NCBI GenBank assembly: GCA_964036195.1
Contig: OZ038451.1
Span: 12,838,529-12,902,528 of the forward strand
Direction of reading: 5' to 3'
Length of the DNA stretch: 64,000 bases
Source of the DNA: Sphaerolaimus hirsutus
Lineage: Eukaryota > Nematoda > Chromadorea > Monhysterida > Sphaerolaimidae
The translations under genes and the position numbers were made by a program. Under the pieces are notes generated by a model. It searched no databases. It had not been told where the DNA came from and worked only from the letters and a program-made list of their open reading frames with translations. Below are positions 7,144-59,800 of this stretch, one piece after another (the stretch's first letter is position 1; each line of letters begins with the position of its first letter).

Positions 7144-7440
7144 GGGGCACTCCCGGACCCTGTAAAATGCTCTGTAAAATGTCAAATGTCATTCAAAGTG
7201 TCAAAACTAAAGTAAAATGCCCTGCAAAATGTCAAACGTCATGGAAAGTGTCAAAAGTAATGTGAATGCCCTGTAAAATGTAAAATGTCATGCAAAGTGT
7301 GAATAGTACCTACCATGTAAAATGCCCGGTAAAACGGCAAACGAATATTTTCGTTTTCGTAGGGAATTTCATATCACTTTTGACTCTTTGCACGACATTT
7401 AACATTTTACAGGGCATTCGACAGTGTCTGGGAGTGGCAC
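7144..7440. repeat. Introner-family element, intergenic copy, inverted orientation
   Basis: The left end GGGGCACTCCCGGACCCTG and the right end GTCTGGGAGTGGCAC are the two introner termini, reversed. The flanking duplication is exactly CAG (7141-7143 and 7441-7443). The interior has repeated TGTAAAATGTCAAA words. This copy lies between genes, showing that the family is a mobile element and not merely a kind of intron. Confidence 0.9.
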
Positions 7441-8366
7441 CAGGCCATTCTCATTTGTTGGCACGTGCGGCGAAATTGCCCATCCCGTTGTTGTGATAAG
7501 CGAAAGTAGAAAATGCGGTTTTAGTAGTTTGAAACCCATGGTCACATAAATAAGACTTTTTCACGTTTCTTCTGGCACGGCAGCAGTGACTTCAAGCTTT
7601 TATATCACTCATCTACCTTCACTTTGTGCATCAGCAGTTGCCTAGTTATTGTGATGGATCACACGAATGAATGCTTCTAAGGGGTTAAAGTTGGGCTCAG
7701 AGCTACATGTAGTTGACGCGTTTGAATTGTGGGACTTTGGTTGTAATTTGGCAATTTATAATAGACGGTTTTTAACATTGCAATGAACAGAAGTACGATG
7801 CTGCCGAAAGATAGCTAAATAATTATTTATTTACATTTACATCGCTGCCAAATCGACAATGTTTAATGATTCATCACGTGCACCATCTCACGAGGCAGTA
7901 ATTTTTCGCGCTACCTAACTGAATATTGGTACATTTGTTAGGAACAACGACGAATGTAATTCGTTCGTGATCTGAAAAATAAAATATCGTACATACAGGG
8001 TTTGTAGTAAATGTGAACATGTACGTATCCGAAAGTCCGCTCTTTTGTATCCAAATAATTTTTTTTATGGTTCCGGGGATACCCAACCCTTACCGCAAGT
8101 TGGCAGCCGGCCATAAATTTCGAAATCACTATAAATATAAATAAAATAGGCTGAAAGTAGGTATAATATAACCGTGTAGCGATTATGAAGGTAAAATTTG
8201 CAAAATGGAGCAAATTTAAGCGATTTTGAGCAAAAATTGGTGAAAAATCCGGACATGTACAATACGCAACCGGTAACCTGGACTTGGGCCAACTAGGCAG
8301 AAATGACTCGATCCAAAAATTGACAATCCGGCAGCCATCGACGGTGGATGACATTCGACCGCAAAA

Positions 8367-11300
8367 ATGAACCCAAAATCGCCCGACACCGGACGTGACG
8401 ATGCTTTTCTACCGCAGACATCGATCAGAGTGTGTTTTACATTCTCTCCCAGTCCACATCAATCATTTCAACTGAAGTATCGAGCTCAATTGAACTTTTC
8501 CTTTCCAGTCGCAAGTGGCGATGCGTCGACGCAACACCGTGGACGATTGGCGTCTACCCGGGGAGGAGATCATATTTGAAGAGCGTAAGTTGTCGCATTG
8601 TTGATGTTTTGATCCCAAGTGACATCCTATTAAACACTTTGGCATCGTGCCAAGTGTCACCGGTTGAAAGAGTATTCGTGTTGTTCATTTGACGGGTGGG
8701 CGACGCAGTATACGCAACGGCTTATTTGTTTGGCTTTCTCGTAGAATCGGACGTTGGTTACCTGTCTCCGGTGGGGCGGAAATTCATAGGCCGCATCACG
8801 ATAACGAATTATCGACTGCGCTTTGTTTCCACTGAGCAGGATTTGGTCAATTCCTCGAGAGTAGCCAAGGTTGATTGTCTTCTGTTGATGTTGATTCTCA
8901 CTTTTTATTTTTTTAAATAGTTTTTAGGCTTCCCACCCGTCGGGGTTAGGTCTCTCTGGCAGATGTCCAAGAGCCCAGTCGCACAATTTAAATTGTGCAA
9001 CGAGGCCCGGCCACCGTCAGTGAGATCGAACCCAGGGCACCTCGCGCGATAAACGCGCGCCGTACCACCGAGCCAACCACACACTTAACAGACTCGCTGT
9101 TACATCCCCTTTAGTAAGCGTCGTTAAGTGCAGTAAAGACGCAGTGATGCGTCTGATCGGCTGCACGCCCCATATACAGCCCAAAGTAGTGCAATCACTA
9201 CTGCGTGTACGCATGTACAGCCCAAAGTAACAGTCACACACCCTCACTTAATCCGCGGCGCTGCACGGCTCAGCCGCTCCGCGGTAAAAATCCGCTCCGC
9301 GGCACTAATACGCCGGGCCGTGCTGCGCGCAGCGCACCCGTCGCAGATGATGTAGGCTCGCCATCATGGTTTTTTTTCGAGCCAAACAGACTCCGCGACG
9401 CGTGAGACGCGTTATTTCATATTTTTCAAAAAAGAAATTGGCACATTGCCCGTTGCCCCTGGTTATGCCTAACACTGACGGAAGGCGAAACTAGTTTTTA
9501 AATACTGCTGTTTGTTGCAGCAATGCCGCGTCACTGTTCCCCTGTGCACAATCAACAGAGTTGAGAAAATCGGCCACGCCACTGTCACCAGGACTGAGGA
9601 CTCGTATGGCCTGGAAATCACCTGCAAGGTAATTTTTTTGTAGTTTTTTTGTATGCTGCACAAACTAGGTTGTCAACTGAAGGATCACTTAGAAAATTGT
9701 TGTTGAAAAAGTAAAAAAAAGTTAAAGATGTTTGAGCTGCCGGAAAACGGAAAGTCGGAAAAAGGAAAATAATATGCTCAAGAGAACAGAAAATACTAAT
9801 TTTCGAGTTGACTGAGACTTGTTCTAACTACTTCACAAGTTTGCATGCATAACTGCAGGACATGCGCACCGTGAAATTCGTCAGCCGGCAGGCGGGGCAT
9901 TCCCGACGGGATTTGTACGAGTACCTAACGCGATATGCTTTCCCACATACAAACAAGCTGGTAAATACTCGTATTTGCTGGAATTTATTTCATCAAAATT
10001 TCCAAGAATGTTTCTATCAAGTAATTTCACGAAATATGCTTTATTTACAAAATAACATGCCATTTTTGTTCAAATTGGACAAAACAAATTGATCATATTT
10101 ACCCTTACTTTCCACTCACTCGTCTAACAAGGGGGGAATTATTCAAGCAAATACGGCATTATTATTATTATTATTGCATAATAATGTCTCGGAATGCACT
10201 GTGCCTGTCGCGTAACATGCGGACGTTTTTCTCCCTCACAGCAATTTTTCGCGTACCAATACACTGAAGAGTTCCCATCGTGGGAGGGCGTTGGCGGGTG
10301 GGAAATTTTCGATCCCCGGCGAGAGTTCAAACGATTGGGTGTTCCAAACGACTTGTGGACAGTGTCCTTCATCAACGAGAATTACAACTTTGCGGATACC
10401 TATCCATCTGTGGTTTAGTGCTGGTTTTTGTTTGAGTTCAATGGTGGCGGTTGTGAAATTGTGAGGTGTAAAATTCCTGTGCAAAATTTCAGTTCGCGAT
10501 TCCGGCCGCCGCTGTGAAACAGGGAGATGACTTTTTGAACAAAGTGGCAAACTTCCGCAGCAAAGCGAGAATTCCGGTCGGTTTTATCGGCTTTTGGAAT
10601 GTAAATATAATGCACGTGTGGTGCTCTTCACCAAAAATCAGCGTCGCGTTCTTTACCAAATATCCATTTTTTTCGACTCGTTATGTAATTTTCCTTTATA
10701 AAATATTCGTGACTTCAACAAAAGAAATTAGACATAGGACAATGTCTTAAAAAGCTAGGTCAGAAAGAAGGTGAATGAATACATTGAGAGGAGAGTTTTA
10801 TATCATGCTTGTGAAGCATGTGGAAGCACATTAGCTTGATTTTCCTTGCGACGCCAACGTTCAAAATGTCGGATATCGATAAACAAAATATTGAATGTAG
10901 ATTAGGTAGGTACGCGTATCGCAACCTTTGCAACCCTAAAGTTAATCTGAAAACATGTGTCACCGACTGTCAAAACTCCATCTTGCATGTAATTCAGGTG
11001 CTGTCGTGGCTGCACCCCGAGACGCAGGCGGCGCTGTGCCGCTGCTCGCAGCCCATGGTGGGCGTGAGCGTGACTGGTTCTGGGCGCCGCTCAGAATATG
11101 ATGAGAAATATGTCAAGATGATCATCGAGTCAAATGTGAGGGCCGATCGGCTGTTCATTTTTGACGCCAGGCCCGTGGTCAATGCGCAAGTTAATAAGGC
11201 CAGTTATTGGGGTTTTTTTTGGACTTACCACACGTGGTAGTAATTGAACATTGGGGTGGTAATTAAGTGCGGTCTTTGTTTTGGTTTTGGCGACCTTAAT

Positions 11301-19609: not shown

Positions 19610-20411
19610 TAGGGTTCAAACGGGACCATGGTCCCGGTACATGGTTCGGCAAAAAATCGGGACTGGGGCGGTCCCGGTCCCGGTCCCGACACCCCAGTCC
19701 CGGTCCCGGTCCCGACACCCCAGTCCCGGTCCCGACATTTACAAAAAGCCAGTCCCGGTCCCGGTCCCGACCACCCAGTCCCGGTCCCGGTCCCGGAATT
19801 TTATAGCGGTCCCAACAAGGGATGGAAAAAAACGTATTTTTCAATGACCTGGGTTTAAAGAAATATGTTTTTTTCATAAAAATTTTTTCTCAACGGCTCC
19901 CAAATATAGTTACTATGTGGTCAACATGTACATGTAAATATGCCTGACAAATAGCAGTATCTTATGATGTCTTATATAGCAATACAATGGCTTTGGAGCC
20001 ATGTTGTAGTATTATAAGTGGTGATTCTTGAAAAAAAATCTATTTTAGGTGTTATTACAAGTGTCTTGTGTAACTTGTTACATAAATACATAGTTTTTCA
20101 TAAAATATTCACGACTTCAAGTGAAGATGGAATTGGAATAGTACTTGAATAATGTTATAAGAAAAGGCTAATACATTGAGAGTGTTCCTTCACACAATGG
20201 AGGTGTGTGGAACAACATTGGCTGGGTATTACGTACCAATAGGGTTCAAACGAGACCCCGGTCCCGGTACATGGTTCGGCAAATCCCAGTCCCGGTCCCG
20301 ACCCCCCAGTCCCGGTCCCGGTCCGGACCACCCAGTCCCGGTCCCGGTCCCGACATTAGAAAATTTCTGGTCCCGGTCCCCGTCCGAAAAACTGGTCCCG
20401 TTTGAACCCTA
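19610..20411. repeat. hAT-like composite built of GGTCCC hexamers
   Basis: The left end is TAGGGTTCAAACGGGACC and the right end is GGTCCCGTTTGAACCCTA. A perfect 8-bp duplication GAAACAAC lies outside (19602-19609 and 20412-20419). The interior at both ends is (GGTCCC)n. A second left end at 20226 and a repeat of the flanking sequence suggest an internal duplication or a nested copy. Confidence 0.85.
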
Positions 20412-25401: not shown

Positions 25402-25639
25402 GTGCCAGTTCCGCAAAATGAGAAGTGAGAAGTGAAATGGAAAAGAAGAAGTAAAAGCGCAAAGGCGAAGTGAAATGGCAAGTGAATTGGCAAGTGAAAT
25501 GGCAAAAGCGAAGAGAAATTACTTTTTATTTTTATTTTTTTACTTCGCTTTTGCCAATTCACTTGCCGTTTCACTTCGCCTTTGCGCTTTTACTTCGTCT
25601 TTTCCATTTCACTTCTCACTCATTTTGCGGAACTGGCCC
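25402..25639. repeat. Introner-related foldback, intergenic
   Basis: The element GTGCCAGTTCCGCAAAATG ... CATTTTGCGGAACTGGCCC is flanked by CTG on both sides (25399-25401, 25640-25642). Its arms are tandem AAGTGAAATGGC words. It has the same outer termini as the exon-splitting introners with a quite different interior. Confidence 0.85.
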
Positions 25640-30628: not shown

Positions 30629-31686
30629 ATGCCTACCAGGCCACGGCAAATTCCGCACGAAAATTCTGCGTTGTCAAACAATTGCGGCCGTCCAAATGTG
30701 CACCGAATTTTCCTTGTTGCACTGCTGTGCGCCGCGGCTGTGAGCTGGCGGCCGGCGCTGGGCAGGCTGGTGCCAGTCCCAGACCCTGTAAATTGCCCTG
30801 TAAAGTGTAAAATGTCATGCAAAGTGTGAAAAGTCTTGTAAATTGCCCTGGAACATGACAAACTTCGTAAAATAGAAAACAAACTAAGTTTGGCATTTTA
30901 CATGGCATTTTACATGACTTTTGACACTTTGCATGACGTTTGACATTTTACAGGCCACTTTACAGGGTCTGGAACTGCCCCCTGATCGACTATGGAGAGG
31001 TGGCTGAAATCTACGACAAGAGAATGCTGCCTGTATCCGGGGGCGTATACGGTTAGCGTGCTTAAGCTACCTAATTGTGTCTGCCCGATTCACTGTGATT
31101 CAGATTGAACAAGCCGAACTTCGTTTAATTCGGCTCCTATTTGTATTCCTATTTGTATAAAAACTTATTGGACAAAAACGAATTTCTCACAGGATAAATT
31201 TGGATGTCCGGCTTGCGTTTTTCAGTGATGGATCTAGGATGTCAAAGTTAGTGATGGAAAAGGCACCGGGAAATATGGCACCGCAATGCACCGCACCCGC
31301 ACCTGTGCCAGCCTCAGAAAGGGCACCTGGCACCATGGGCACCGGCCAAAAAATGGCACCGCACCGGCACCGGTGCTATTCTGAAAAATGGCACCGGCAC
31401 CGACAGGACACCTTCAAAACAGGGCACCGCGGCACCGGTGCAGGTGCCGTTCGGTGCTCAACACCGGGGCACCGGTGCCCCGGTGCCATTCCATCACTAG
31501 TCAAGGCCAAGTGACACTTAACTCAACCATACACCCCCCAATGCAGGCAAACGGGCGCCGTTGCCGCTGAGCGGCGGCGTGTACGGCAAGCGGTCGAGAA
31601 TGCTGCCGATCTCGGGCGGCGTGTACGGCAGGAAGCGATCGACCGACCGCATGATGCTGCCCGACAACGGTGGCCTGTACGGATGA
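30629..31686 (+). CDS. nlp-10: NLP-10-like neuropeptide precursor (GGVY-amides)
   Basis: Three exons: 30629-30769, 31000-31051, 31547-31686 (110 aa). A hydrophobic secretion segment 'IFLVALLCAAAVSW' lies near residue 30. The rest is dibasic-cleaved peptides that end in Gly, the amide donor: MLPVSGGVYG, APLPLSGGVYG, SRMLPISGGVYG and STDRMMLPDNGGLYG. They are separated by KR or RKR, and the last is followed by the stop. Processing by a KR convertase and amidation would give four related GGVY/GGLY-amides. C. elegans NLP-10 makes peptides of the form ...PFSGGMY-amide, so I assign this gene to that family by pattern. The second exon's spacer ends YDKR. Intron 1 is a transposon of the introner family. 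Without it the exon reads through 'LGRLIDYGEVAEIYDKR' in frame. With CTG rather than CAG at the target, the nearest usable acceptor is GAGAG at 30999, which would drop five codons. Confidence 0.85.
30770..30981 (+). mobile_element. Introner splitting the neuropeptide gene
   Basis: The left end GTGCCAGTCCCAGACCCTG directly follows coding CTG. The right end CAGGGTCTGGAACTGCCCC is followed by a second CTG (30982-30984). So the element sits in a 3-bp CTG duplication. Its GT is the donor of intron 1. The duplicated CTG gives no AG, so the acceptor is inferred 15 nt downstream. The interior has facing TGTCATGCAAAGTG and CACTTTGCATGAC arms. Confidence 0.88.
31249..31499. repeat. hAT-like MITE built of GGCACC hexamers
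   Basis: The ends TAGTGATGGAAAAGGCACC and GGTGCCATTCCATCACTA are flanked by GTCAAAGT and GTCAAGGC, a diverged 8-bp duplication. The interior is GGCACC/GGTGCC words with small insertions. It lies in intron 2 of the neuropeptide gene. Confidence 0.85.
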
Positions 31687-35505: not shown

Positions 35506-38500
35506 ATGAGGTGCCATGCGGTACTTTTTTTGTGCGCGTTGATAGCAGCGCTGCGCTGCGACGCGGCGCCCATGTCCGACGGGAGCGGCGAGTGCGAGGC
35601 GGACATCGTGGTGCTGCTCGACGCCACCGGCAGCATCAAGGGCGTCTTTGAGCACGAAGTGAGAGGTTATAGAGGACGTATACAGGGTGCCTGCGGCACA
35701 CTAGTTTTTACAGGAAATTTTGAAAACTCAGAAATCAGACTAGAACGCATTTGAGTTTTATACAGTTGACGGGGATGAAAAATGACTCATTGTGGAAAAC
35801 TCAAACACGTTCAAAGCTCATTGATGAGTTGTCGAAATTTCCTTTGAAAACTGTGCGCAGGGCCATTGTAACAAAACTCTGATGTAGAGTTTAGACTGTC
35901 GCTACCGAATTTCAGCTAGAAATGTTGCGCATTGTGGCGAAAGAACTGCCGCAACTCACCACCAAGTTCCAAATCGCGCTGGTGCGCTACAGCGGAAAAT
36001 ACCAAAAGGTACCGGTCAAGCCGTGGGGAAGCTTCTCCACGCTGCAAGATTTCTCCAACTACTTGACGGATAAATTATACATGGGAACGACGACATACAC
36101 CGGCCGCGCAATGGGTAAGTTTGGATGTGATCGTTCAAATTGTTAAAAAACTTGAGAAACATAAATTTCACATCTGCAGAAGAAAAAGTGGTCCCGCTTT
36201 GGCAAGACCGCCCGAACAAGGGCCGCCAAGGCGTACTTATTTCTGTGACAGATGGGTTTGTGTCGCACAGGGATGACGTTGCTAAAGTGAAGTCAGCCAT
36301 GGCAGCAATGAAACAAATGGACATTGTATCTATTGCTGTTTCTGTGACAGATAAAGCTTATGAGTAAGTTCAACTTAAATATATTAATGTTCAATATATA
36401 GCTCTATCAGTTACTGGCATACAAAAAATTACACCTTATGAGTAAGTCCTCATACAATTTTGCAGGGAAGAGTTACCATTTCAAGCAAATCCATCGAGTT
36501 TAGTTATTATAGAAACGGATCCAGAGTCAGCAGCAAAACAAGTTGTTGAAATTGTGAAAAAGTACTCAAAGTGTCCCGGAACTCGGACAACAAAACTGCC
36601 TACAACCACAACCACAACCACAACTGAACCTACCACAACCACAACTGAGCCTACCACAACCACAACAGAGCCTACCACAACCGCAACTGAACCTACCACA
36701 ACCACAACTGAACCTACCACAACCACAACTGAGCCTACCACAACCACAACTGAGCCTACAACAACCACAACTGAACCCACTACAACCACAACTGAGCCTA
36801 CCACAACTGAATCGACCACAACCACAACTGAACCTACTACAACCACAACTGAACCTATAACAACCACAACTGAATCGACCACAACCACAACCACAACTGA
36901 ACCTGCCACAACCACAACTGAATCTACCACAACCACAACTGAACCTACCACAACCACAACTGAGCCTACCACAACCACAACTGAATATCCTGCTACCACA
37001 ACTGAATCTACCACAACTGAGCCTACCACAACTTCAACTGAACCTACCACAACTACAGCTGAGCCTACCACAACTGAACCTACCACAACCACAACTGAAC
37101 CTACCACAACTACAGCTGAGCCTACCACAACTGAACCTACCACAACCACCGCTGAACCTACCACAACCACTGCTGAACCTACAGCAACCACAACTGAAAG
37201 TAGTGCATCTACAACTGAACCAAAAACCACTTCAGAAACATCTGTTACTACTGAACAAATCCCATCAAGTACAGAGGAGGCGAGCACAACCACTGAGCCA
37301 ACAATCAAACCCAAGCCCACAGACTTCCCTAGCCGGCCTAGCACCACTGAACCCACATTTCAGGCAACTGGCTCCACTCAGCCAGCAACTGTCAGCGTAA
37401 CACAAACACCAGGTTGGTCACATCAATGGTCAGTGACTAGAACATAAATATGAGGTAAAATAAATTCTAAAAATTGACAATTCTAAATTTTGTATATTTT
37501 TATTTATATCAGCAATTTTTTTGTGGGTTGCTCCCGCAAATTTTTCATTGTTTTCTATAAACTTTTTGACTCCACTTGCCCCTTTTTAATATCTCAAAGT
37601 TATACACTTCTGTAAAAAGCATGCAAAAATCTAGGGCAAAGTTTGACAAGTCTGCTCAATACAGGGCTAAAAATCAACGAGTCCATCTTGCAGAGTTTTT
37701 TGTCGCAAAAAGATGATTAGAAAGTCGATATGTCCGCTGTCAGAAATATTATCCTCAGTCGTCTAACAGGGGGAATTATTCAAGTGGTGGGAACTATTCC
37801 AGTAAATACTGTTAGCCATTGAATCTTAACTAAATCCATCAACCCGCCACGGCAGCCACGGCACCCCCAATTGAAACGATGTCAACACCGCCATCTGGCA
37901 CCGGGCCAACCAAAGCACCACCCCCGAACAGGGAAAACTGCTGCGCGTGGGCTGGCAGCGGCGCGTGCGAGTCCAACCCGGCGTACATGATGGGCAACTG
38001 CCCACAAGCGTGCGGAATGGGCTCGTGCACGGGTGAGTGCGATTCGGGTGTGCGATTATCAATGGGAACTACCTGTTAGCTGGATCTGGATGCGGCAGCG
38101 AAATAGATTGTTTATCGTCAAAAAATATGGATGAAAGAAGGCCCACAAAAACGTTTGAAAAGGAAATTCCTGGTCGTGTAAGCAATTCACATATAGGCCC
38201 AACTTTTTTCATTATTCTGTTTTCCGTTCGGTAGATTTAAAATTTCCGCTTTTTTCCGATTCCTAAAAACGTTTGAACGCATTGTTTGAGCCCCCCCCCC
38301 CCGTTCCGGGCCCCACAAACAAACAGCCCCCCCCCCCGCTCAAAAATCCCGGGGCAGTTGCCGACTCTGTATAATCCCTTGTAAAATGTCAAACGTCATA
38401 CAAAGTGTCAAACGTCATGGAAAATGCGAATGGGGCATTTTCCATGACTTTTGACACTTTGCATTACGTTTAACATTTTACAGGGCAGTTTACAGGGTCT

Positions 38501-38620
38501 GGGACTGGCACCCGGATACACCCCTGACAAGCACCAATCACACGATTATTCGCAGACGCGGCTACATGCAAGGTGAACGTATCGCAGCTGCTCAGACATT
38601 GCTGCTGTGGTGATGAATAA
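35506..38620 (+). CDS. Secreted vWA protein with Thr-rich stalk and ShKT-like domain (paralogue 1)
   Basis: Six exons: 35506-35658, 35916-36114, 36180-36363, 36466-37412, 37856-38032, 38556-38620 (574 aa). A signal peptide ('AVLFLCALIAALRC') precedes a von Willebrand factor A domain with MIDAS residues D39-x-T41-x-S43. The later metal-site Thr lies in 'TTYTGRA' and the Asp in 'ISVTDG'. From about residue 222 to 423 the chain is tandem TTTTEP/TTTEP, a mucin-like stalk likely to be O-glycosylated. A Cys-rich module 'CCAWAGSGACESNPAYM' then 'CPQACGMGSC' fits the ShKT pattern common in nematode secreted proteins, and the tail ends 'CCCGDE'. The protein probably works in cuticle, gut lumen or matrix. 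Its sister gene lies 2.6 kb downstream with matching intron positions and phases. The ShKT exon here is unbroken, unlike the sister's. Confidence 0.85.
35693..35865. repeat. MITE in intron 1 of vWA paralogue 1
   Basis: GCGGCACACTAGTTTTTACA at the left faces GAAAACTGTGCGC at the right. Inner GAAAACTCAGAAATCAG and TTGATGAGTT arms pair partly. Same broad family as 45492-45745. Confidence 0.6.
36598..37200 (+). repeat. ACCACAACTGAACCT tandem coding repeat
   Basis: About 35 units of 12-18 bp, based on CCTACCACAACCACAACTGA, encode TTTTEP. The strand is nearly free of T-rich words and G is scarce, so the opposite strand also stays open as a Val-rich frame. Unit-length changes keep the frame. Confidence 0.9.
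38351..38511. repeat. Introner-family element within an existing intron
   Basis: Reverse orientation: GGGGCAGTTGCCGACTC at the left, CAGGGTCTGGGACTGGCAC at the right, with facing GTCAAACGTCATG arms. Flanks are CCC and CCG. It lies in intron 5 of vWA paralogue 1, away from the splice sites. A block of C homopolymers precedes it (38290-38340). Confidence 0.8.
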
Positions 38621-41220: not shown

Positions 41221-42936
41221 ATGCGGCGCGCAACATCACTCGCGGTTCTGAGCTGCCTGGCTGCATGGCTGACGACTGTCGCCGGAGTCGAACTTGACGC
41301 GGACAGCCTGCAGTGCCGCGCCGACATCTTGGTGGTGCTCGACGCGTCCGGAAGCGTGCTCAAGGATTTCCAGGATCAAGTGACTTTTTTGGTTGTGAAT
41401 CACAACGAAATGGTGCGCACTTTATTTCACGCTTCACAGGTGGAGATGCTGCGCCTATTCACCAAAATGCTACCCGAACTGCACCTGAAATTTCGCATAG
41501 CTATGATTCGATACAGCGGCGATTTCAGTCCCTTATTTGTCGACGATTGGGGAAAATTCCCAGACAAGGCGGCCTACTTGCAAAAATTGGACGAAGTCAA
41601 ATTGATCGGCCGGACAACTTACACGGGCAGAGCTCTTGGTAAGGCGAGGGCGGTTGGAAAACATTGCAACGTACTGTGTGCATACCCAGACACTATAAAC
41701 TGCCCTGTAAAATGTCAAATGTCATGCAGAGTGTCAAAAGTCAGTCGTGTAAATTGCCCTGTAAAATCTCAAATGTCATGCAGAGTGTCAAAAGTCAGTC
41801 GTGAAAATTGCTCTGTAAAATGTAAAATATCATGCAAAGTGTTAAAAAGCATGTAAAATCCCTGCAAAATGTCAAACGAAGTTGGACATTTTACAGGACA
41901 TTTCACGGGGTATGTTATGGTGTGCCACCTTCACTGCACAAAAACCGTTTACAGGCATCCTGGGCGCGCTGCGCTTGTGGCTGAACCGGGCCGACAAACG
42001 CGTCAGGCCGATCATGATCTCCGTCACTGATGGCAAAGCGCACGACCCCAACATGGTCGTGGCGAACATGGCGCAAATGAAGCTCATGAACGTTACTTCC
42101 ATTGCCGTCAGCGTGCACCCCAAATCAAGGTGGGTTGAGTGGAAACGGGAGGATCAGTATTTACACGGCACACATGTATTGGTAAATATTAGAAAGTGCT
42201 TGTCGATCTGACAAAACAGTGTGGAAAAAGCACTACCTATTTAGTCGCGCGCCGCCCACAAATATGAACAATGCACAAAGTCCATATTCCCGCAGCCCCA
42301 AGCTGGGCCGGCAGGCGCACCCGGCCGCCCTAGTGATTCGCGACGAGAACGTGGCCTCGGCGGCGGCCACGCTGTACGACATGGTGACGCGCTACGCCGA
42401 CTGCCTGGACGTCAGCACGCACACGACCGTGTCGATCAAGCCGCCCGCCAAGGCGCAGTGCTGCAAGTGGGCCGCCGACGGCCACTGCGACACAAGGTGC
42501 CAGCCCCGGACCCTGTAAATCACCCTGTAGAGTGTAAAAGAACATGTCAAATGTAATGTGTCATGCAAAAGACCCTGTTAAGTGTCATGTCTCCAGATCT
42601 TATGTTTTTGCATCGAAATCTGATGTCCAAAAGTAAGATTTGGGTACACATGACACTTGACAGGGTCTTTTAAATGAGACAGGACATTTTGCAGTGTCTT
42701 TCACGCTTTACAGGATTTTTTCAGTGTCTGGGACTGCCCCCAGACCCGAGTACATGAAGGTGGCCTGCGCGCGCGCCTGCGGCACCCCCTCCTGCAATGG
42801 TCAGTCGGCCACGTGAGTGCAACGTTTGTGGACACGTGTAATCAACGTTTACGTTACAGAGTACGACGTGAAAACATGTCAGGGCAACATATCCGCCGCG
42901 CTGTCCTACTGCTGTTGTGGCAACGAAATTCAGTAG
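41221..42936 (+). CDS. Secreted vWA/ShKT protein (paralogue 2), with a transposon intron
   Basis: Six exons: 41221-41379, 41440-41638, 41955-42129, 42296-42496, 42744-42799, 42860-42936 (288 aa). A signal peptide ('LAVLSCLAAWLTTVAG') is followed by a vWA domain with an intact MIDAS D41-x-S43-x-S45, 'TTYTGRA' and 'ISVTDG'. Then comes the Cys-rich module 'CCKWAADGHCDTRPEYM'-'CARACGTPSC' and the tail 'CCCGNEIQ'. There is no mucin stalk. Exon 2 is 199 bp in both paralogues, and the shared introns have the same phases. Intron 1 is 60 bp, a multiple of three without stops. Paralogue 1 aligns across it (…HE|LEML against …DQ|VEML), which shows it is spliced. The intron within the ShKT module (42497-42743) is absent from paralogue 1 and is an introner. 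Function probably extracellular, binding partner unknown. Confidence 0.87.
41683..41925. repeat. Degenerate introner-family element in intron 2 of paralogue 2
   Basis: CCCAGACACTATAAACTGCC and tandem CTGTAAAATGTCAAATGTC words face GACATTTTACAGGACATTTC. The terminal GTGCC is eroded. The true splice sites (GTAAGG, TTTACAG) lie outside it. Confidence 0.7.
42497..42743 (+). mobile_element. Introner forming the ShKT intron of paralogue 2
   Basis: The exon ends ...GACACAAG and the next base begins GTGCCAGCCCCGGACCCTG. The right end is TGTCTGGGACTGCCCC followed by CAG, then the exon resumes ACCCGAG. Joining gives C-D-T-R-P-E-Y-M in frame. The flanks are AAG and CAG, compatible with a slightly diverged 3-bp duplication. 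Element plus duplicate is exactly the 247-bp intron. Confidence 0.92.
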
Positions 42937-43604
42937 CCCAGTGCATTCCGCGCACCGCAGAGCTACCGTATATAGTGGCTTAATGACTGGAAAAAGCGAT
43001 AACATAAAACTCGTTTTGAAGTGTATTTTATTTGTGTAAATACGTATAAATAAAATCCGAGTTGTTGATTGCTTTAAAAAAAGTTGAAGATGAATGTGAA
43101 ATGAATAAGTTTCACGTGCCCCATTCGACAATTCCTGGCGTATTTATCTTAGGTATTTCACATGATCTAATTTACGGCAGTCGGTTGACCGTTGGTTTAC
43201 GGCAACTACGGTTGTATTTATTGTAAAGCCAAAATAAAAATCATAGACTTTACCGAAACTTTGTATCGGGTCTCGGCTCAATCTTCAACTTTTTAGGAAG
43301 GAGAAGAAAAAAATAAATTCAAATGAAATGCAAAAAAATAAATATATGAACACGATTCAAAGAAATCTTCGCCATTGAAACGCAAATCTTTCGGTTTCGA
43401 TGAGATTTAAATCAGCACACAAAAGTTGCCACAAGGCCAGCGTGGGAAAAGAACGATAAAATCATTCTGAGCCATATGATAAGCACAGTGAACGTCTCAG
43501 CGTAGAAACGCCAGAGAAATCGTGTTCACTTAAAAACAGCACGGCAAAGTAGAATACACTCGAAACAAGCAACACGCAAGTCGAAGCAAGCAATTAAAAG
43601 AGCC

Positions 43605-46600
43605 ATGCGTATTTGTCCATTTTTATTACTCATCGGACTAGCGCTGTCATTTATCGCCACGCCATCAACTGGCTCACAGGAAGAAAATTCATCGGAATCA
43701 GACAGCCTGGTGCCAGTCCCGCAAGTTGACAAGTTTACTTTACTCTTGATCCTTGACGCGGCTCTTGAATTTTCTCTTGACTTTCAACTTGACTCATGAC
43801 TTTGTCACTTGCTTCACTTGAATCATGTTCAACATAAGATTTGGATACACAATGGACACTTTGCGACTGCTCCCTGGTGCCGGTTCCACAAGTGACAAAG
43901 TCAAGAGTCAAGTGAAATATCAAGAGCAAAGTAAAGAATCAAGAGTAAAGTATTTACTTGTCAACTTGCGGGACCGGCCTGGATGAAGATGCACAGCCAT
44001 TAGAAGAGGCACCAGAGTCCGCGCAAGCGGCAGTGGAAATGTTTTTACCGGCACTGGAAACTAATGCATCGTCAGAAGTCGCAGGAGACACGGCGACTGA
44101 AATGATTGGAAACTTGACAGTTGAAGTGGCGACAAACGATTCGATGGAATTGCCTCCGGGCAAGGCAGCAAATGGACCAAGCCAAATACTAGTGGGGCTC
44201 GAAACTCGTCTGACCCGAATGTCGGGCACAAAAGCCCGTCACGCACTACCTAGTTGACAATGACACCAAGTGTCAACTGGTTCCGATTCCAATTCAAAGC
44301 TTGCTGACGAACCGACGAACGTCCAAAACTTTTTTCGTAAAATGTTAACAATTACACCGACGATTGTTCCGCCATCACGAAAGAGCACAGTTTTTCAACA
44401 GAAAAGAATTTCAAGAAAAAATTTAGAAAAAAGACTGGAAACACAAGAAACATTCCAGTATCAGGAACCGGAATCGAAATTCGAAAAGAACCGGTTTCGA
44501 GCCCCAGCCCCCAGGTATCAGCTTCTGCAACCAAGTTGTCACTAGGAGAAGCGGGAAACACATCAACAGAGGAAGTGGGTCCAGTGGCAAACGCATCGAC
44601 ATATGAATCATCAGAACTGTTGGGAAACATATCGACACTTGTAGAGGACAGTTTTGCAGATGTAGGAATGAACATGTCGTCAGAAGTGGCAGATGACATT
44701 GTGGAAAAAGCGGCAGCGATCGCATTACCTGAGCTGGTAGAAAACGCGACGCAGATAGAGCCAAATTCATCAGTGATAAAGGCGGTAAACATTTCAGCGG
44801 TATTGAAACCAGGTGTCAAATCCTCATCTAGTCAAGTGACAAGTAAAGTTATTCATTGAAAGGTAAAGTTGGGACTAATTCAAAGGAGGGATCATTCAGC
44901 TGAGACTTGTTCAAGAATTTACATATTAATGTGACAGAAATGTCACTTAAACTTTTATTCTCACTCATAAACTTCACTTGTCATTTGGCAAGATGCGGAA
45001 TTGGTCCCAGACCGAGACCTAGAGACTAAAACAGCACTACCAAAAGAAACAAACACACCGAAAGTAGTCATAGCAAGGGAATCATCAGAGAAGGATGTAA
45101 AAACAGCACCGAAAACAACAAACACAACAACAGAAGAAGTAAAAGCAAGCGGTCCATCAGAAAAGGCGGAAAAAGCGGTGGAAGCACAAAGCACAGTACC
45201 GGAAGCAAGAACAACGAGAGCACCAGTGTCTGCAAGCACCACAACGATGCGAAGACACCCAAAACGAAAACTTTTAAAACTTTTCAAAATTACGAAAGTA
45301 CGTCATGACCAGCCGTATGTTATGCCGAGCAAAACAGAAATCCGTGAGTTGACAGATTACTGTAGATAGAATAGCATGAATGTAGAATATTAACGGTATG
45401 CAAGCTTGTGTGCAAAAATGATCGAAAAAGCGCACATTTTGAAAATACGAAAAATACGCTACTTTTCGTGGCGGGGATGTTTTGTCCCTTAGGCCCTACA
45501 CACACTAGTTTTTACCGAGACCGATTTGACAACTGAAATGGCGACATGGCGACATCCAGCCTACTCGTTTTGTCTGTTATATGTGTTTTAGTTCGAAAAA
45601 AATTAATTTTAACTTTCCCTAATTTAAATTCCAATCAAAACTAAGTGAGATCATTCAACCGTGTTCATTAATTTGCATTTGAAAAAATTTCAGTTTTCAC
45701 ATGAAGTCACGGTGAAAACTAGGTAGTGTGTGTAAGCACTTTGGCACCTCAAATAGCGCCAGCGCCGCGACGCCATTCCATCACTTCACTAGTATACTCG
45801 GCGAACACGATACTCTGCCCCCGCACTCATTTATGCCTCACGTTGGAAGCGTGCCAATGATGATAAAGCATGCGATTTTTGTATAAAAGATGAAAAATCA
45901 TTGTTGCGAAAAATTTAACGTATAGCGTTATAACAGAGATGATTTCTTTCAACTTTGTATGAAAATCGCATACGTGAAAATCGTTGGCACGCTTCCAGCA
46001 GGAACCACGCGTGCAGGGTGTAAAGTGATTGGAGTATAGTAATAATCAAATATACACGAGAAATGAAAAAAAATATGTAGGCAAAGGCTCCAAGCCAACA
46101 CCAATCGACAAGACGACAAATGGAAAACGCCTGAGTGAAAGCGCAAAAGCGAAACTCCGAGCGATGAGAACAGCGTCGAACAAAAGTAAGAAAAGAAGAG
46201 CATCAAGAGAAGAAAGAAGGAAGGAAATGAGAGAATCAAGCGAGGAAAAAAGGAGGGAAAGGAAGGCTCACAGGGGCCACTCCCAGACCCTGTAAAATGC
46301 CATGTGAAATGGCGAAAACCAGTAAAAATGAATAAAATTTGACTTTTGGACGTACCATTTGCATGACATTTTACGAATTGTTGACGCACACAACAGTTTA
46401 CAAACAATAGTAAAGTCAAATTGGGCGCTCATAAATCAGCTTATCTATTTGAGTTTACCAGAATGAGTTATTTTCAATCTTCCTCAACTGTAGTTGACAG
46501 ACACTTCTGGTAAACTCAGATGGGTTCAAAGATGACTTAAGAGTTTACCAAAATCTGAGTTTACTGGCAGTAAACTAGTGTGCGCAGCGCTATTACAGGA

Positions 46601-46703
46601 CATTTTACATGACGTTTGACACTTTGACATTCGACATTTTACAGGGCATTTTACATTGTCTGGAAGTGGCTCCAGGCGTCGCAGACATGAAAGTGGGCGA
46701 TGA
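43605..46703 (+). CDS. Orphan secreted protein, acidic Ser/Thr-rich then strongly basic
   Basis: Six exons in consistent phase: 43605-43709, 43997-44191, 44515-44812, 45011-45343, 46081-46291, 46676-46703 (389 aa). A clear signal peptide ('FLLLIGLALSFIATPSTG') leads into an acidic Glu/Ser/Thr-rich chain with several N-x-S/T sites (N-A-S, N-L-T, N-T-S, N-I-S). After 'ASTTTMRRHPKRKLLKLFK' the sequence turns basic and finishes with Lys/Arg-rich runs ('KSKKRRASREERRKEMRE') and 'RRRHESGR'. I recognise no family. It may be a fast-evolving secreted or mucin-like product. Three of its five introns start or end in introner elements (43710, 44813, 46274), and two further introns are packed with MITEs. 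The second and last junctions are the least certain. Confidence 0.6.
43710..43978 (+). mobile_element. Introner in exon 1 of the orphan secreted gene
   Basis: The left end GTGCCAGTCCCGCAAGTTG and the right end CAACTTGCGGGACCGGC lie between two CTG copies (43707-43709, 43979-43981). Deleting element and one CTG gives ...D-S-L-D-E-D-A-Q in frame. The CTG target leaves no AG, so the acceptor is inferred at CACAG, 43996. A second left end (GTGCCGGTTCCACAAGTG) lies inside, so two elements may be fused. Confidence 0.82.
44233..44330. repeat. Left half of a CACTAGTTGAC-type MITE
   Basis: CTAGTTGACAATGACACC, CAACTGGTTCCGATTCC and AAAGCTTGCTGACGAACC match the left arm of 29070-29362. The right arm is missing. 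It lies in intron 2 of the orphan secreted gene. Confidence 0.7.
44813..45007 (+). mobile_element. Introner-related element forming intron 3 of the orphan gene
   Basis: Coding ...AAACCAG is followed by GTGTCAAATCC. The right end GCGGAATTGGTCC is followed by CAG (45008-45010) and coding ACCGAGAC. An exact CAG duplication lies outside. Phases join as K-P-D-R-D-L. Inner CAAGTGACAAG and CTTGTCA arms pair. The interior is of the AAGTGA type, not the TGTAAAATGTC type. Confidence 0.82.
45492..45745. repeat. MITE with CACACTAGTTTTTACC ends
   Basis: GGCCCTACACACACTAGTTT faces GAAAACTAGGTAGTGTGTG. It lies in intron 4 of the orphan gene; a GGCGCC fragment ending CCATTCCATCACT follows at 45755-45785. 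Confidence 0.7.
45789..46039. repeat. Foldback element, copy 2
   Basis: Matches 1419-1663 along its length, with facing GGAAGCGTGCCAA and TTGGCACGCTTCC. It ends 40 bp before the inferred acceptor of exon 5 of the orphan gene. Confidence 0.8.
46274..46672 (-). mobile_element. Introner in reverse orientation, splitting the last coding exon
   Basis: Exact CAG copies flank it (46271-46273, 46673-46675). The left end is GGGCCACTCCCAGACCCTG and the right end is TGTCTGGAAGTGGCTC. Removing it joins ...K-A-H-R to R-R-R-H-E-S-G-R and a stop. In this orientation the terminal GT is on the wrong side. The sub-terminal GTAAAATG at 46292 can serve as donor and the right CAG as acceptor, still in frame. A GAGTTTACCAG MITE (46388-46596) is nested in it. 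Confidence 0.78.
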
Positions 46704-48385
46704 AACTAGATGAAGATAATGAATGATTTTTGATTGAAAGTTCATAGTGAAATTAAACTACCTATACCCATTGACCATGTTCTTTCTAACATAACGACGC
46801 TAAGCTGTTTAGGTGATTTCGATGCATATGCATAAATAATGACCCCACACACAAATGGTTTACGGCCAAAATTTCGGAAACTGATAAATAAATCAGCTTC
46901 GGATGCAATTTAGGTCACCGGTATGAGGAGACCGTCAACTACCGTTGACAGAGATCGAAAATAATTCAATCTGGTAAGCTAGAAACTTTAAATCAGATTT
47001 ATCGGTTTCAGAAATTTGGGCTGTTTTGGTCGTCATTGGCTTTTATCATTTTGTGAGAAATAGCACACCAACAAGCAACAACACCCGCTGCAGACAACAC
47101 AGAAGGAAATGGTGAAAGATTTATCTGCACATGATCTTTGAGGCTTTCAAGTTCATAGACATTGTTTCTAGTGCACTCGTTGGATATAAATCATTGGACC
47201 ATGTGCCATTACTCATCTGGACCCATCTAATTCTACTCATGACTCATCTAGGTATACCTGTTACTCATCTAACCTACCCCATATGACTAGGATTCATTTT
47301 CTTTTCAGATCAGATGAGTGCAATGAAAATGGATCCATTCCAGTAAAGTCAAATGTGTCCAAGCTGACCCTGTGCCTCTATGCATGCACTTCCACAATCA
47401 CTGCAATTTCTCTTTTGAGCACATTTGAATTTACTGGAATGGATCCATCCATTTTCATCAGGTTCAAGTGTGTTTAATGGTTTCCTTTTCCTGGTAAAAT
47501 CAAATACATTATGTATTTAAACACACTCAAATAAATTTTTGTAATGGGGGTTGATTTAGATGTGTGGAAGGGTCTAGATGAGTAATGGGTAGAAAGATTG
47601 GTAACGGGTCTAGATGTATAATGGGTTTAGATGAGTAATAGGCCTCAGCCAAATAGTTGTACCGTTTCATCACTTGAAAATAAAATCTTGACGATAAACA
47701 CATATGGGCAAAAAATGCGTGGGATAAGTGGATTAAGCTTTTAAAAGCAAAGAGTACAAAAACTGCATTGATAACCGCAACGAAATGGGTGCGGCTCTGG
47801 CACAATTTTTATTCATTCAACCGTTTCTGTCAGACTGAAACGCCCTAGATTACACATAATTCAGACATAAATTAAAATTTAATATGTTTGTATTAATTCG
47901 CGATAAGCATATTCCTACCATACTATTTAATTTTGTGTGTAAAACATGCTCATTTCATACCGAACCATTGATTGTGTATTTACCCGACACCAAGTAACTT
48001 TCGGTGATAAGCGCGTGTGCTATATTAAAGCGAGAGGCGCTGGCAATTTACTTCCCAACACCAGCTTTTTCGATAAACACGTTTGATTTTAAACACGTTT
48101 CCTTCGTTCTTGCGCCACAAATATTTGCGACCGCTTCACACTCGAGCTGAATGTTTCCCCAAAAGCTTCGTTTTTAAGTCCCGCACTAGTGATAAAAGTC
48201 CAATTTTATGCGAGCGAACGAGCTTTACGCCACGTTTACTACCAAATCAGCTTATCGCAAACACAAACAAAGCGAAGTTCGTCCAGTCAGACACCTTCTT
48301 TGCCAAGTCACTCGCGCCGCACTAATCGCAAAGAGTACAAGATTGTTCTTGGCGAAGCCCAAAACACACCTGCACAGATAGAACC
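46704..48385. other. Intergenic, one MITE
   Basis: 46845-47035 holds facing GGTTTACGGCC... and GGTAAGCTAGAAAC arms related to the GTTTACCAG family. 47220-47650 has diverged ACTCATCTAG / CTAGATGAGTA words on both strands. No gene is supported. 48080-48385 may contain the 5' UTR of the next gene. Confidence 0.5.
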
Positions 48386-50231
48386 ATGCCGCTGTGGCGT
48401 CGCTTCAGCGAACGCAACGTCAACTACCAACGGGCGTCGCAGCGCAGCAACACCACCACCAGCAGCGACTTTCTGCCGGCGCACAAGCGAGCCCTGCTCA
48501 CCACCAGGTGCCAATCACAGACCGTGTCAAATGAACTGTAAAATGTCAAGTGTCATGTAAAGTGTCAAAAGTCATGTAAAATGCCCTGGAAAATGGCAAA
48601 CGAACGTTTGCCATTTTCCAGGGCATTGTACATCACTTTTGACACTTTTCATGACATTTAATATTTAACAGGGCACTTTACTGGCTTTACTCACCCGGGC
48701 ACTTTATTCACCGGTTACTTACGGGCACTTTACTCACCCCCAGGCTGCTCGCTAGCATCGCGTGCACCGTGCAGCGGTCGGCCAGTCGCTTCAGCGTGAT
48801 CGAACGCAACAGCAACAGCGCCGACGCCATTGGCTCGCTGGCGGCTGGAGACAAGGGGCGCAAGCGCTGCCGCGGCAAAGCCACCAGCTACAGCTGGGAT
48901 CAGCTGCTCAACTCGACTACGAGTCAGCTGATTGGAGATAATGAGCAGATCATGACGTCGCTCATTCAACTGTTCGCGCCGAAGACTAAGTTGGTATTTT
49001 ATTTATATTCATCGAAACCGGCTTTGGCTGCCATAAAAATATACCTGACATCACAAAGTACTGCCACTTGCCTAACCAACCTGTAAATGTCGACCCACAC
49101 ACAACATTTGGGAACTTTTGAAGTAAACTTTTGAACAACCCCAAAACAACACTCAACTCGCAGACCGGACGAGGCCACTAGCACATTCCGCCGTCACATG
49201 GAAACATCCCTGATCGGCCGGCTGGCCGTGCAGTCGCACTTCACCACCCTGACCCCGTCCGACCTGGTGTTCAGCACGGGGCACACCAAGGGCGACTTGA
49301 AGCACTGCGACGCTGTGTTGATGATCGCCAGAAGATCGGGCGATGAGAATGAATGGGCCAGCTTGTATTTGTTCCAGTTGGATAGGGCTACCAGAGTGAA
49401 GGGTGTCTCGTTTGTGGAAGGTGAGTAGTTGATTTGATTGCATGAGACTTGTCGCGACCAGAGAGTGCATGCGATTTGGTTGAGGATTTCTAAAAATTAA
49501 AGTGAAGTCGATTTCTAAATTAAAGGACGATTTCACCCTGAAGCAAATGCATAGCATGACGTTCGATGTGAAATACTGATCACGCGAAAAAATTGAGAAG
49601 ATTTAATTTAGCAAGCTCCAATTTAAAACAAATTACAAAATGCAAATAGAAAAAACAAAAAACACGAACATTGAAAAAGTCGTTTTCAAGCAGTCTCTTA
49701 ATGTAAAATACACGCCACACATTTCGCCATGCAAAAAATGTAAAAACAAAGCAAAGCCAATAACTCCAATTGAAGATCTGAAAACACCTCACCCCGCCCC
49801 CCCCCCCCCCCGCAGACATCAGCCCAGATCAACTCGAAGGCACCAAGTGCACCAGCAGCAGCGACCTGTGCCTAGCCAGAATAGCGCTGCACATGTGGGC
49901 GGCCGAACTGACCAACGCCCATCTGCTGCTAGTAGCCGACGGGTGGAAAGTAGCCCACCAGGCGCACGACTTCGATGACTTCAAAGACGCCGCCGACAGG
50001 ATCAATCTCGACTACCAAGTGGTCAATTCGAAGTGGACGGAAGGCGGAATCAAGAGATCGCGTTTGACCACTGAGAGCGCCATGTTGGCCAGGGTGTTGG
50101 CGTGCGATGAGAGGCCGGTGGAGTATAAATTGGACCGGTGCCAATTGAGACAGATGAAGCGCGGATTTAATCTGCCGCGGTACCTGGACATTCTCACTTG
50201 CGGCTGTTGCAGTCGGAAGGAGGACGCGTGA
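48386..50231 (+). CDS. Unrecognised 346-aa protein with a Cys-rich C-terminus
   Basis: Four exons in phase: 48386-48507, 48744-48989, 49164-49420, 49816-50231. The start 'MPLWRRFSERNVNYQ' leads into a Ser/Thr/Asn-rich, basic N-terminal region ('SRFSVIERNSNSADAIGSL'). An ordered-looking middle follows ('MTSLIQLFAP', 'HFTTLTPSDLVFSTGHTKG', 'ASLYLFQLDRATRVKG'), then a helical part ('LARIALHMWAAELTNAHL') and a basic end 'LDILTCGCCSRKEDA'. No signal peptide or membrane helix is evident, so it is probably cytoplasmic. The terminal CGCC could be lipidated or bind metal; that is a guess. Intron 1 is an introner; the ACC ACC AGG CTG CTC frame is restored on removal. GC content is high across exons. 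Confidence 0.75.
48508..48740 (+). mobile_element. Introner forming intron 1 of the 346-aa gene
   Basis: CAG (48505-48507) precedes GTGCCAATCACAGACCGTG, and CAG (48741-48743) follows the right end, an exact duplication. The arms TGTCAAGTGTCATG and CATGACATTTAA pair, as do GGCAAACG and CGTTTGCC at the centre. The right terminus is overgrown by three GGGCACTTTACTCACC units. Confidence 0.9.
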
Positions 50232-56800: not shown

Positions 56801-59800
56801 CGGCCACATGAGCGGCCGAGCAGTTCTGAGCGCCCTGGCGCTGCGCTCGGCCGTGTCGGCCGCCTTGCCCAGGTTCAGCGTGCGCGCGCCCAACTCCGTG
56901 GACGACTGGTCCGCGGCGCCGATCACGTACACGCCGCCGTCGGCTGTTGTAAAGGATGCTAAATACTGAACTTCACACTTGTTCATACTTCAACAATTCG
57001 CTCTGAAACAGAGCCGTTAAAACTAAAAGTACTGTACTTTTTTCAAAGTAAACGTAAACGTAAAGTATTTTACTTTTACTGACCCCTGATAGTACAGAAA
57101 ACGTAAAGTTACGTAAATTGTGAGTAAACGTAAATACCCATATTTTTACACAGAGAAAACGTAAAAGCGAGCATTTTTCGAGTTTAGGTTTAAACTAAAT
57201 GCTTTTATCAACTATGGTCTGAACAAGCATCATGCGGCTCACCGGCAATGCACGCAGCGTGTGTAGCGCCCAAAGCGTAGGGCGAGCCCCAGTCGCACTT
57301 GCAGTTCATGTTGATCAACGGCAGCGCGTCCGCGTACGTCATGCCGCAGACAAACGACTGTCTATAACAGGGATGGAATAGGACCCATTTTTAATTTTTA
57401 AATATATATTAAATATTTTATTTAGGGATGTATTTTTTCAACACGGTTTTTCCCCAAAAAGGTTGTTTTTAGACTGTTTCTCAAAAGCTCCCAGATATGG
57501 TTATGAGTCACGTGGAATGGTAATGTGTATGTGAAATTGTGCCCTAGCCCGCAAAAATACAAAAGATCTACAGCTTAAGTACAAAACATTTTGGCTGAGG
57601 TTTTAAAAAAAAACGGTTCCGATGCTTGCGTTTTTTAAAAACAACGTTGAGAAACTCCCCGGCCATCCCTAGTTTACACTGGAAATTGAACAATTCTTAA
57701 TCAATAAAAATCATCAACCCCCCCCCCAAATCCTCGTCCACCATCACCAACCGCCTTAGCCAATCGTGGTCAGTCTCGTTGTTTACCTTGTGCACACCCA
57801 GCTGGTTGTAGGCGTTGGCGCCGGTGGCCAGCAGGCGGCCGTTGCACAGCAGCGCGGCGCTCGCGTCCCGCCCGCAGTGCACCGAGCGCACCAGCGCGCA
57901 GTCGGGCGGCATGGACACCGGCAACGGGGTGGTCACCTTCGTGGAGCTCTTGAAGCCAAGGCGACCTTGAAAGGGGTGGGGCGGCTCGCGTGGCTGAATA
58001 TTTAGGATTTTGCAAGGTATAGAAGGCGGAAAGGGGAAAATCGCTAAAACAGGTTTTAAAAAGCTAAACATGTATATAATCATGTATCAATATAGCCGAA
58101 AATAGTTATGTTGAACGTGAAAATTGGCAAAATGGGGCAACTTTGAGTAATTTCGAGTAAAAATCGGGGGAAAATAGCTCAAAATTCTCACATAGATTAA
58201 TAGGCCGCCGATTTCTGGGGGGTAGGGTTCAAACGGGATCCCGATCCCGATCCCGGATCCCGTGAAATTCCGGGATTTAGCAGTCCCGATCCCGATCCCG
58301 AAACCCCAATCCCGATCCCGAAATCAAAAAATACCAATCCCGATCCCGAAAACTTTCAAATCCCGATCCCGATCCCGAGAATCTCCCAAGTCCGGGATCC
58401 CGATCCCGGAAAAAAAGTGGAAATTATAAAAAGTGAAAAATGACATTTTTGCGTGCAAAAATGTGAACGCAAACCCCAGCGTCCATTTTATGTCACTTTT
58501 CTGGCATCCAACAGTGTTTTGAGACCTTTATGAACAACTGTGAATGCCAGAACAGTGACGAAAATCTCTATCCCTATACCCCAATCCCGAAAAAATGCCA
58601 ATCCCGATCCCGATCCCGTGACTCCAATCCCGGCCAATCCCGATCCCGAAATCTCAAAATACCAATCCCGATCCCGAAACCCGATCCCGAAATCTCAAAA
58701 AGTGAATCCCGATCCCGAAAAGTCAATCCCGTTTGAACCCTAGGGGGGGGGGTAGCCTCCCCCTTGGAGACCCCTTGAACTGACCATATTCCGGCTTGCC
58801 CCACGCGAACAACTCATTCGTATTTGTGAGCGCGAGCACGTGGTCGCTGCCTGCGGCCGCGTCGACGATCGAGTGCTCCATGAGACTGCGCACGATGGCC
58901 GGGCGAGCCGCGTCTTCGCAGCCGCCTCTACCCAAACAACCGGCACCGCCGCTGCCCATGGACAGAAGGAGGCCCTTGTCTGTGTAGTGGATGTTAAGAT
59001 ATGAAACTAGAATAGTCAAACTTGACAAAATGCCAGCACTGTTGTATACTCGTACACTCCTGGATAATTTACCTAGAATCACTCTCCTGTGTAAACAAAA
59101 ATGGTCCGACGCAAGTACTCCCAACTTTTTTGTATACATTCGCAGTGACGTTTTACAAGCGGCATGAACAAAATTCAGTCCGCTCAGAATTACACCCCGA
59201 CAAAAATTTCCGATAAAAAACTAAAGTAACCGGTGATCATGATGACGAACGCCGAGCCACAAGTTATTTTGGCGATCTTGTACTCAGTCTTCAAAAGTGT
59301 CGTCTCAAACACAATCGGCGTGGGCGGGGCGTCGAACGACACCGCGGTAAATGGAGCGGCGCCATTTTCCGACTCGATGGAACACTGGCCGGCGGGAGGT
59401 TGCTCGTCAGGCTCCGCCCACTGCACCACGCCACCGGTAGATGTTAGTGCGTAGTGTCTGAACCCGTCGGTAGCCACCCAGCTCACCTGAGTTACCGTTT
59501 GTTTGTGTGAGTGATGGATTCCGAGAGGCGAGAAATCAGCAGGGGGAAAACCGAGACCGTTTAAAATGTAAAATGTCATGCAAAGTTCGCAATTTTACAT
59601 AATTTTTGACGGTTTGCATTACTTTTTTGACATCTTACAGGTTTAGGGACAGCTCGCAACCTGCTGCGTGACATCGGGCGGCCAAGGCAGTTGCTGCGGG
59701 TACGCCGTACCGTTGCCCCAGAAGTACACGGCCGTGCCGCACGAGGTGGACTCGCCGCGCAGCTGCATATTCGCCAGGGTGGCGTCGGCGGCCGACGGCG

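Follow-up and report, generated by a model that had tools for sequence, protein, structure and literature searches.

Candidate introners at CAG and CTG targets in the nematode Sphaerolaimus hirsutus

Can short inverted-repeat elements that interrupt the coding exons of an animal be removed by splicing, and so act as newly made introns? The question is raised by a 64-kb window of Sphaerolaimus hirsutus DNA (C2:12838529-12902528, in an assembly of 348,482,957 bases and 762 contigs), in which an earlier note, made from the letters alone, had described a family of such elements flanked by 3-bp CAG or CTG duplications. Our analysis indicates that these elements are likely to be introners of a nematode, inserted into coding exons and predicted to be removed by splicing. 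On sequence evidence, this reading is well supported for the copies at CAG targets, while those at CTG targets pose a separate problem. Positions are those of the window, by which we mean the whole stretch analysed.

Short inverted-repeat elements that duplicate a CWG target

The elements are short, hairpin-like inverted-repeat transposons whose insertion duplicates a CWG target, either CAG or CTG. Within the window, the end motif GTGCCAGTCCC (two mismatches or fewer) has 49 matches against a shuffle mean of 9.96, and GGGACTGCCCC has 24 against 7.76. A simple repeat of the GTCCCGGTCCC type at 19659-20380 inflates these window counts and holds some of the GTGCCAGTCCC matches. With end motifs above the shuffled level and elements at or near each of the places that the earlier note gave, the elements that it described are real.

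Genome-wide, an exact 26-mer of the GT end occurs 556 times after CAG and 434 times after CTG (990 in total), and an exact 26-mer of the right end 693 times before CAG and 447 times before CTG (1,140), with no match for any of the reversed controls; being exact matches, these counts pass over decayed copies. When the second base of the left end was left free, it still gave GT in 990 of 1,071 ends. For individual copies we took the first 30 at CAG and the first 50 at CTG, every one of them on contig C1. The right end could be resolved in 63 of these 80, the other 17 being dropped before counting; six of the latter, L016 among them, are readable with a one-base shift and were added only in a recount. 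The left and right triplets of the 63 resolved copies are CAG/CAG in 20, CTG/CTG in 29, CTG/CAG in 11, and CTG/AAG, CTG/CTA and CTG/CTC in one each. Three pairs of near-identical loci on C1 (L020/L021, L079/L080 and L083/L084) share the same element insertion within each pair, so that these segmental duplications must be younger than the insertions.

Elements measure 113–591 bp, with 47 of the 63 resolved copies between 140 and 200 bp, and are therefore too small to hold a transposase gene. Together with their self-complementary inverted repeats, target duplication and high copy number, this gives them the traits of miniature inverted-repeat transposable elements (MITEs), and the family is apparently non-autonomous. 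Two of the window elements fold as RNA into a long hairpin (z −12.45 for 30770-30981, which is 212 bp long and 80% self-complementary, and −10.74 for the other).

A preference for CWG targets is a trait of Harbinger transposons, to which the earlier note had ascribed the family. PIF/Harbinger elements make 3-bp target duplications (PMC2572040), as do the 20 CAG/CAG and 29 CTG/CTG copies among the 63 resolved here, and the domain of Harbinger-type transposases, DDE_Tnp_4, is abundant, with 163 reported genome matches of which dozens are nearly equal in score. Two of these transposase regions were read and showed no ends matching the element family, and the exact element ends on C1 do not lie near the transposases listed there (coordinates compared by eye). 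A Harbinger ancestry fits the 3-bp CWG duplications and the abundance of these domains, and is a possible origin of the family. Each DDE_Tnp_4 match takes up about 633 nt to cover 147 profile positions and has around four TGA codons inside (for example, C2:10037349-10037981, L092), a pattern that an intron of about 190 nt in the transposase gene would give.

Insertion into coding exons and the predicted introns

Element 42497-42740 (plus strand) interrupts the ShK-type domain of a gene that also encodes a vWA domain (41221-42936, plus strand; five modelled exons; vWA 38.4 bits). It is flanked by an imperfect duplication, AAG at 42494-42496 and CAG at 42741-42743, and the predicted intron 42497-42743 would run from GT to AG. 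In the tandem paralog upstream, this exon is unbroken and does not differ in length at the junction (37936-38032, plus strand, for the aligned part of the exon), so that for this one insertion into an exon an empty site exists; the two genes share another intron position, as judged by eye. In a cut-out fragment the ShK profile scores 25.7 bits with exact removal of the element and 16.2 when the 18 nt up to an internal GTAAA are kept (cut-off 20.9), and in longer fragments 21.4 and 10.3 bits, respectively. The intron would have arisen after the gene duplication, unless the paralog lost it exactly; we favour gain, because the target is duplicated.

Further insertions into conserved coding sequence were found elsewhere in the genome, among 30 open frames of joined flanks that we picked by eye from the C1 copies, four of them antisense. 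Eleven of the 30 joined frames matched a Pfam domain over its cut-off and 19 did not. The junction falls within the match in nine: CTG/CTG copies in E1_dh (L057), Oscp1 (L046), Xan_ur_permease (L059), Calpain_III (L067) and Srx (L055), CTG/CAG copies in Cyclin_N (L058) and AMP-binding (L068), and CAG/CAG copies in Cation_ATPase_C (L029) and Oscp1 (L019). The last of these lies 835 bp from L046, which also matches Oscp1, so that a single gene seems to have taken both a CAG and a CTG copy. In the two remaining frames the junction is outside the match, which begins 19 residues past it in L031 (CAG/CAG) and about 25 residues past it in L028, where the GDT1 match is antisense. Some other frames received names by eye (RFC1, GPATCH1 and SIRT6), which are presumptive and carry no weight as evidence. 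Many exonic copies end at predicted intron borders, those introns being predictions from sequence as well.

The GT end lies upstream in the gene in all nine domain-internal copies, as expected of a donor, although this count is not unbiased, the queries having been picked by eye with only four antisense frames among them. A codon model evaluated by leaving each copy out called 15 of the 63 copies sense, three antisense and one ambiguous, with 44 uncalled (binomial p 0.0075); the three antisense calls (L037, L052 and L077) read sense by eye. This model replaced a first one, retrained on its own calls, which failed to separate real from antisense frames.

How a copy at a CAG target could work as an intron is simple to state. 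The left duplicate would end the upstream exon, the element's own GTGCC would be the donor and the right duplicate the acceptor (CAG|GTGCC...CCCC CAG|), so that the intron would run exactly from GT to AG. The inverted repeats may pair in the RNA, masking an inner GTAAA and an inner TTTACAG and drawing the true ends together. By sequence, the copies with CAG on the right have GT-AG borders, which are absent from the element end of the CTG/CTG copies (29/63).

The earlier note had proposed this use of the splice sites at CAG targets, and had listed six exon-interrupting members, starting at 30770, 42497, 43710, 44813, 46292 and 48508. Elements are present at or near all six places, and in each case (6/6) the frame is open again once the element and a single duplicate are taken out; the latter is, however, no evidence of splicing, because it follows automatically from any target-site duplication. 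The proposal itself gains support from the sequence of the empty-site paralog, the orientation of the nine domain-internal copies and the copy number, and it needs correction at several of the six. An element at 48508-48740 (plus strand; CAG at 48505-48507 and 48741-48743) is a decayed member of the family in a gene of 346 codons and four modelled exons (48386-50231, plus strand), with a predicted GT..AG intron at 48508-48743. Protein homology searches with the product of this gene and with the vWA-ShK protein gave no match at E <= 0.001. The copy said to start at 46292 starts in fact at 46274 (46274-46672, plus strand; CAG at 46271-46273 and 46673-46675), 46292 being its internal GTAAA. We also dropped 44813-45007 (plus strand) as a family member: its first base begins a GT and it lies between CAG duplicates, the right one at 45008-45010, yet it has no BLAST similarity to the other eight window elements (E <= 1e-3) or to the 80 genomic copies (E <= 1e-5), which makes it a member of an unrelated inverted-repeat family that also uses this type of target.

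The remaining two of the six members named there are the ones at CTG targets, of which that account made nothing; a GT-AG intron with borders at their element ends is impossible (2/6). The first is inserted in a neuropeptide precursor gene with GGVYG-KR repeats and three modelled exons (30629-31686, plus strand), which we take to resemble C. elegans NLP-10; the element, at 30770-30981 (plus strand), has CTG at 30767-30769 and 30982-30984 and ends without AG. The other (43710-43978, plus strand; CTG at 43707-43709 and 43979-43981) likewise ends without AG, in a secreted Ser/Thr-rich gene, and belongs with 25402-25639 to a minor related family, the two being similar to four and six of the 80 genomic copies (43710 and 25402, respectively).

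Copies at CTG targets and the competing explanations

CTG targets are no rarity, making up 434 of the 990 exact GT ends, some of them within conserved domains, where exact removal would leave a GT..TG intron. In four CTG/CTG cases, exact removal gave the highest score of all the alternatives tried. Keeping the 18 nt up to the inner donor lowers the score from 23.6 to 11.6 bits in E1_dh, from 31.1 to 18.7 in Oscp1 and from 62.2 to 52.0 in Xan_ur_permease, and abolishes the match in Calpain_III (22.1 with exact removal); use of a phase-matched AG downstream lowers Xan_ur_permease from 62.2 to 40.7 and abolishes Oscp1 and Calpain_III. Such scores reveal the host protein as it was before insertion, and would speak of working removal only if the alleles function.

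The two duplicates of a copy also differ in a direction of interest. Of the 43 copies with CTG on the left, 12 have a right triplet ending in AG, and of the 20 with CAG on the left, none has CTG on the right (p 0.0066); among those 12, L056, L063 and L087 are doubtful and L083/L084 are duplicated. CTG/CAG right ends are more diverged than CTG/CTG ones (p 0.039), and, genome-wide, CAG takes a larger share of right ends (693/1,140) than of left ends (556/990; p 0.031). Element 42497, within the window, has AAG on its left and CAG on its right. The skew runs in the direction expected if AG is selected for in the acceptor duplicate; its strength is modest, and it suggests that the CTG copies are imperfect introns, some later repaired to CAG. 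At a CTG target the element would probably still function as an intron of the GT-TG kind, though less well; an inner TTTACAG lying 19 nt before the end may aid its recognition, and a T-to-A change in the right CTG would make the intron canonical, the last being the weakest step of the scheme.

Several results weigh against splicing at the element ends and against repair. The inner TTTACAG seems a better acceptor than the element end, but splicing there would retain 19 nt, with a shift of reading frame. Copy 46274 starts with GG and so lacks a terminal GT donor; only from the internal GT at 46292, with 18 nt kept in frame, could a GT-AG intron arise there. The ShK-type domain was detected only in cut-out fragments; a search with the whole vWA protein did not report it at E <= 1. 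Continuity of a domain across the junction is equally expected for a young, unspliced insertion. As for the skew, it weakens to 8/39 against 0/19 (p 0.044) in a strict count without doubtful and duplicated copies, to 14/47 against 1/22 (p 0.026) when the one-base-shifted ends are added, and to 10/43 against 1/21 (p 0.085) in the strict set with shifted ends. One of those shifted ends, L016, is a possible CAG-left/CTG-right counterexample, opposite to the skew, and the greater divergence of the CTG/CAG right ends vanishes in the strict set (p 0.40).

Four other explanations have to be weighed with these data. It is quite possible, if short of probable, that only the CAG copies are introns, and that exonic CTG copies are young, mostly harmful insertions in heterozygous or broken alleles, persisting only if mutated to CAG: CTG offers no AG, CAG outnumbers CTG at both left and right ends, many CTG/CTG right ends are intact (8/29 without mismatch in 23 positions) and human TG acceptors are described as rare and only alternative (PMC2374985). 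That CTG accounts for so many of the exact GT ends sits poorly with this view, as does the finding that five of the nine domain-internal copies are CTG/CTG, including in housekeeping families such as E1_dh; nor are CTG/CTG copies clearly younger than CAG/CAG ones (mean mismatches 1.14 and 1.55, p 0.26). We regard it as unlikely that CTG copies are spliced from GT to the first phase-matched AG in the exon downstream, at the cost of a few codons. Introners that recruit exonic splice sites are described (PMC9860276), and both CTG cases in the window have such an AG 15 nt downstream, whereas 9/29 CTG/CTG copies, including the domain-spanning L055 and L057, have none within 48 nt, and deletions of this kind abolished or lowered the domain scores in the three cases tested.

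Explanations that dispense with splicing fare worse. Ordinary transposon insertions that break genes, or that lie in mispredicted exons and make no introns, would account for the 44 of 63 copies that the codon model did not call coding; this is very unlikely in view of the domains that span the junction, both in the window and in nine copies from other places, and of the decayed copy 48508, whose gene model is still open over 346 codons. Precise excision at the DNA level in some cells, as in PIF/Harbinger or the internal eliminated sequences of ciliates, would need no splice site at all. PIF/Harbinger-like elements do excise precisely (PMC4561436), and insertions within conserved domains occur at both CAG and CTG; excision would predict neither the GT end upstream in nine of nine domain-internal copies nor the acceptor-side skew towards CAG, itself weaker under the strict recount, and we consider it highly improbable. 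Removal by splicing is the likely reading of the family. For its fuller form, we hold only tentatively, at rather less than even chances, that the introner introns of this nematode would number in the hundreds or more, with GT-TG introns a large share of them, and would be born in two steps, by insertion at CWG and a later T-to-A change in the acceptor duplicate, with the hairpin and the inner AG doing the work of recognition.

Surroundings, known systems and meaning

The window holds other copies outside recognised coding exons. A family member at 7144-7440 (minus strand; CAG/CAG, its GT end on the minus strand) and the minor-family element at 25402-25639 (plus strand; CTG/CTG) lie outside recognised genes. 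Another family member, at 38351-38511 (minus strand), sits in reverse orientation between CCC and CCG in an ordinary intron, the final one of the vWA paralog. A decayed, internally repeated member at 41685-41915 lies within intron 1 of the vWA gene, with the splice sites outside the element, and is an ordinary insertion into a pre-existing intron. The paralogous gene itself has a long threonine/proline-rich repeat of the TTTTEP type followed by a stop at 36600-37230, its ShK-type and last exons being further downstream. Elsewhere in the window we noted a myotubularin-like exon (10815-11240, plus strand) and an RCC1-repeat exon (58723-59220, minus strand). Rfam returned nothing in the window at the gathering threshold, and ARAGORN no tRNA.

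That the host is a nematode, as had been proposed from the letters, agrees with 56 matches over cut-off to Col_cuticle_N, the nematode cuticle collagen domain, in the assembly and with the chemoreceptor domain Srx, for which a joined exon scores 31.4 bits (cut-off 23.8); we take both to be markers of nematodes. The mitochondrial contig (C762, L010/L011; 14,754 bp) reads under code 5 and has genes on both strands, and its cytochrome b frame is split near 8,100–8,200, perhaps by an assembly error.

The elements resemble DNA-transposon introners described before in their inverted repeats, target duplication, and one carried and one co-opted splice site; those of Chrysochromulina likewise carry the 5′ site and co-opt the 3′ site, with 4-bp duplications (PMC9860276). 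They differ in being found in a nematode, in their 3-bp CWG duplications and in that about half of the copies lie at a target without AG. In that survey of 3,325 genomes (Gozashti et al. 2022), introners within animals and land plants were confined to two groups, each of them animal, and the main text does not contain the word "nematode" (PMC9860276). Among the papers listed in our literature searches, none reports nematode introners by title or abstract opening, and an earlier description may exist outside the literature searched. Introner elements of Amoebophrya also have inverted repeats able to form hairpins, direct repeats of 3–5 nt at the borders and non-canonical borders (PMC7789003); in contrast, they belong to a dinoflagellate and have very varied borders and no family-specific repeats, where here one family dominates, at one target and with the 5′ GT kept. 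Small non-coding copies with inverted repeats and 3-bp target duplications are shared with PIF/Harbinger and Tourist-like MITEs (PMC2572040, PMC4561436); here, the two transposase regions read did not show the ends of the family. Human TG acceptors, known only as alternative sites in 36 genes with an AG within 28 nt (PMC2374985), are likewise 3′ sites near an AG, here the TTTACAG; here TG would be, instead, the regular acceptor of many introns. The tunicate Fritillaria is another animal whose genome ties transposon activity to introns escaping the GT-AG rule (PMC13326754). Whereas the donor of non-canonical introns is often other than GT in Fritillaria, the present elements keep GT at the donor end, with CAG or CTG as acceptor.

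The origin of new spliceosomal introns is a long-standing question, and a recent survey of intron gains in nematodes could not identify their source sequences (PMC9169325). The candidate gains of this nematode are numerous, and each is marked by its own target duplication. Since the two duplicates have the same origin and only one of them would serve as a splice site, selection on a newborn acceptor would be directly measurable, and the CTG half of the family would test whether an animal spliceosome takes TG acceptors in bulk.

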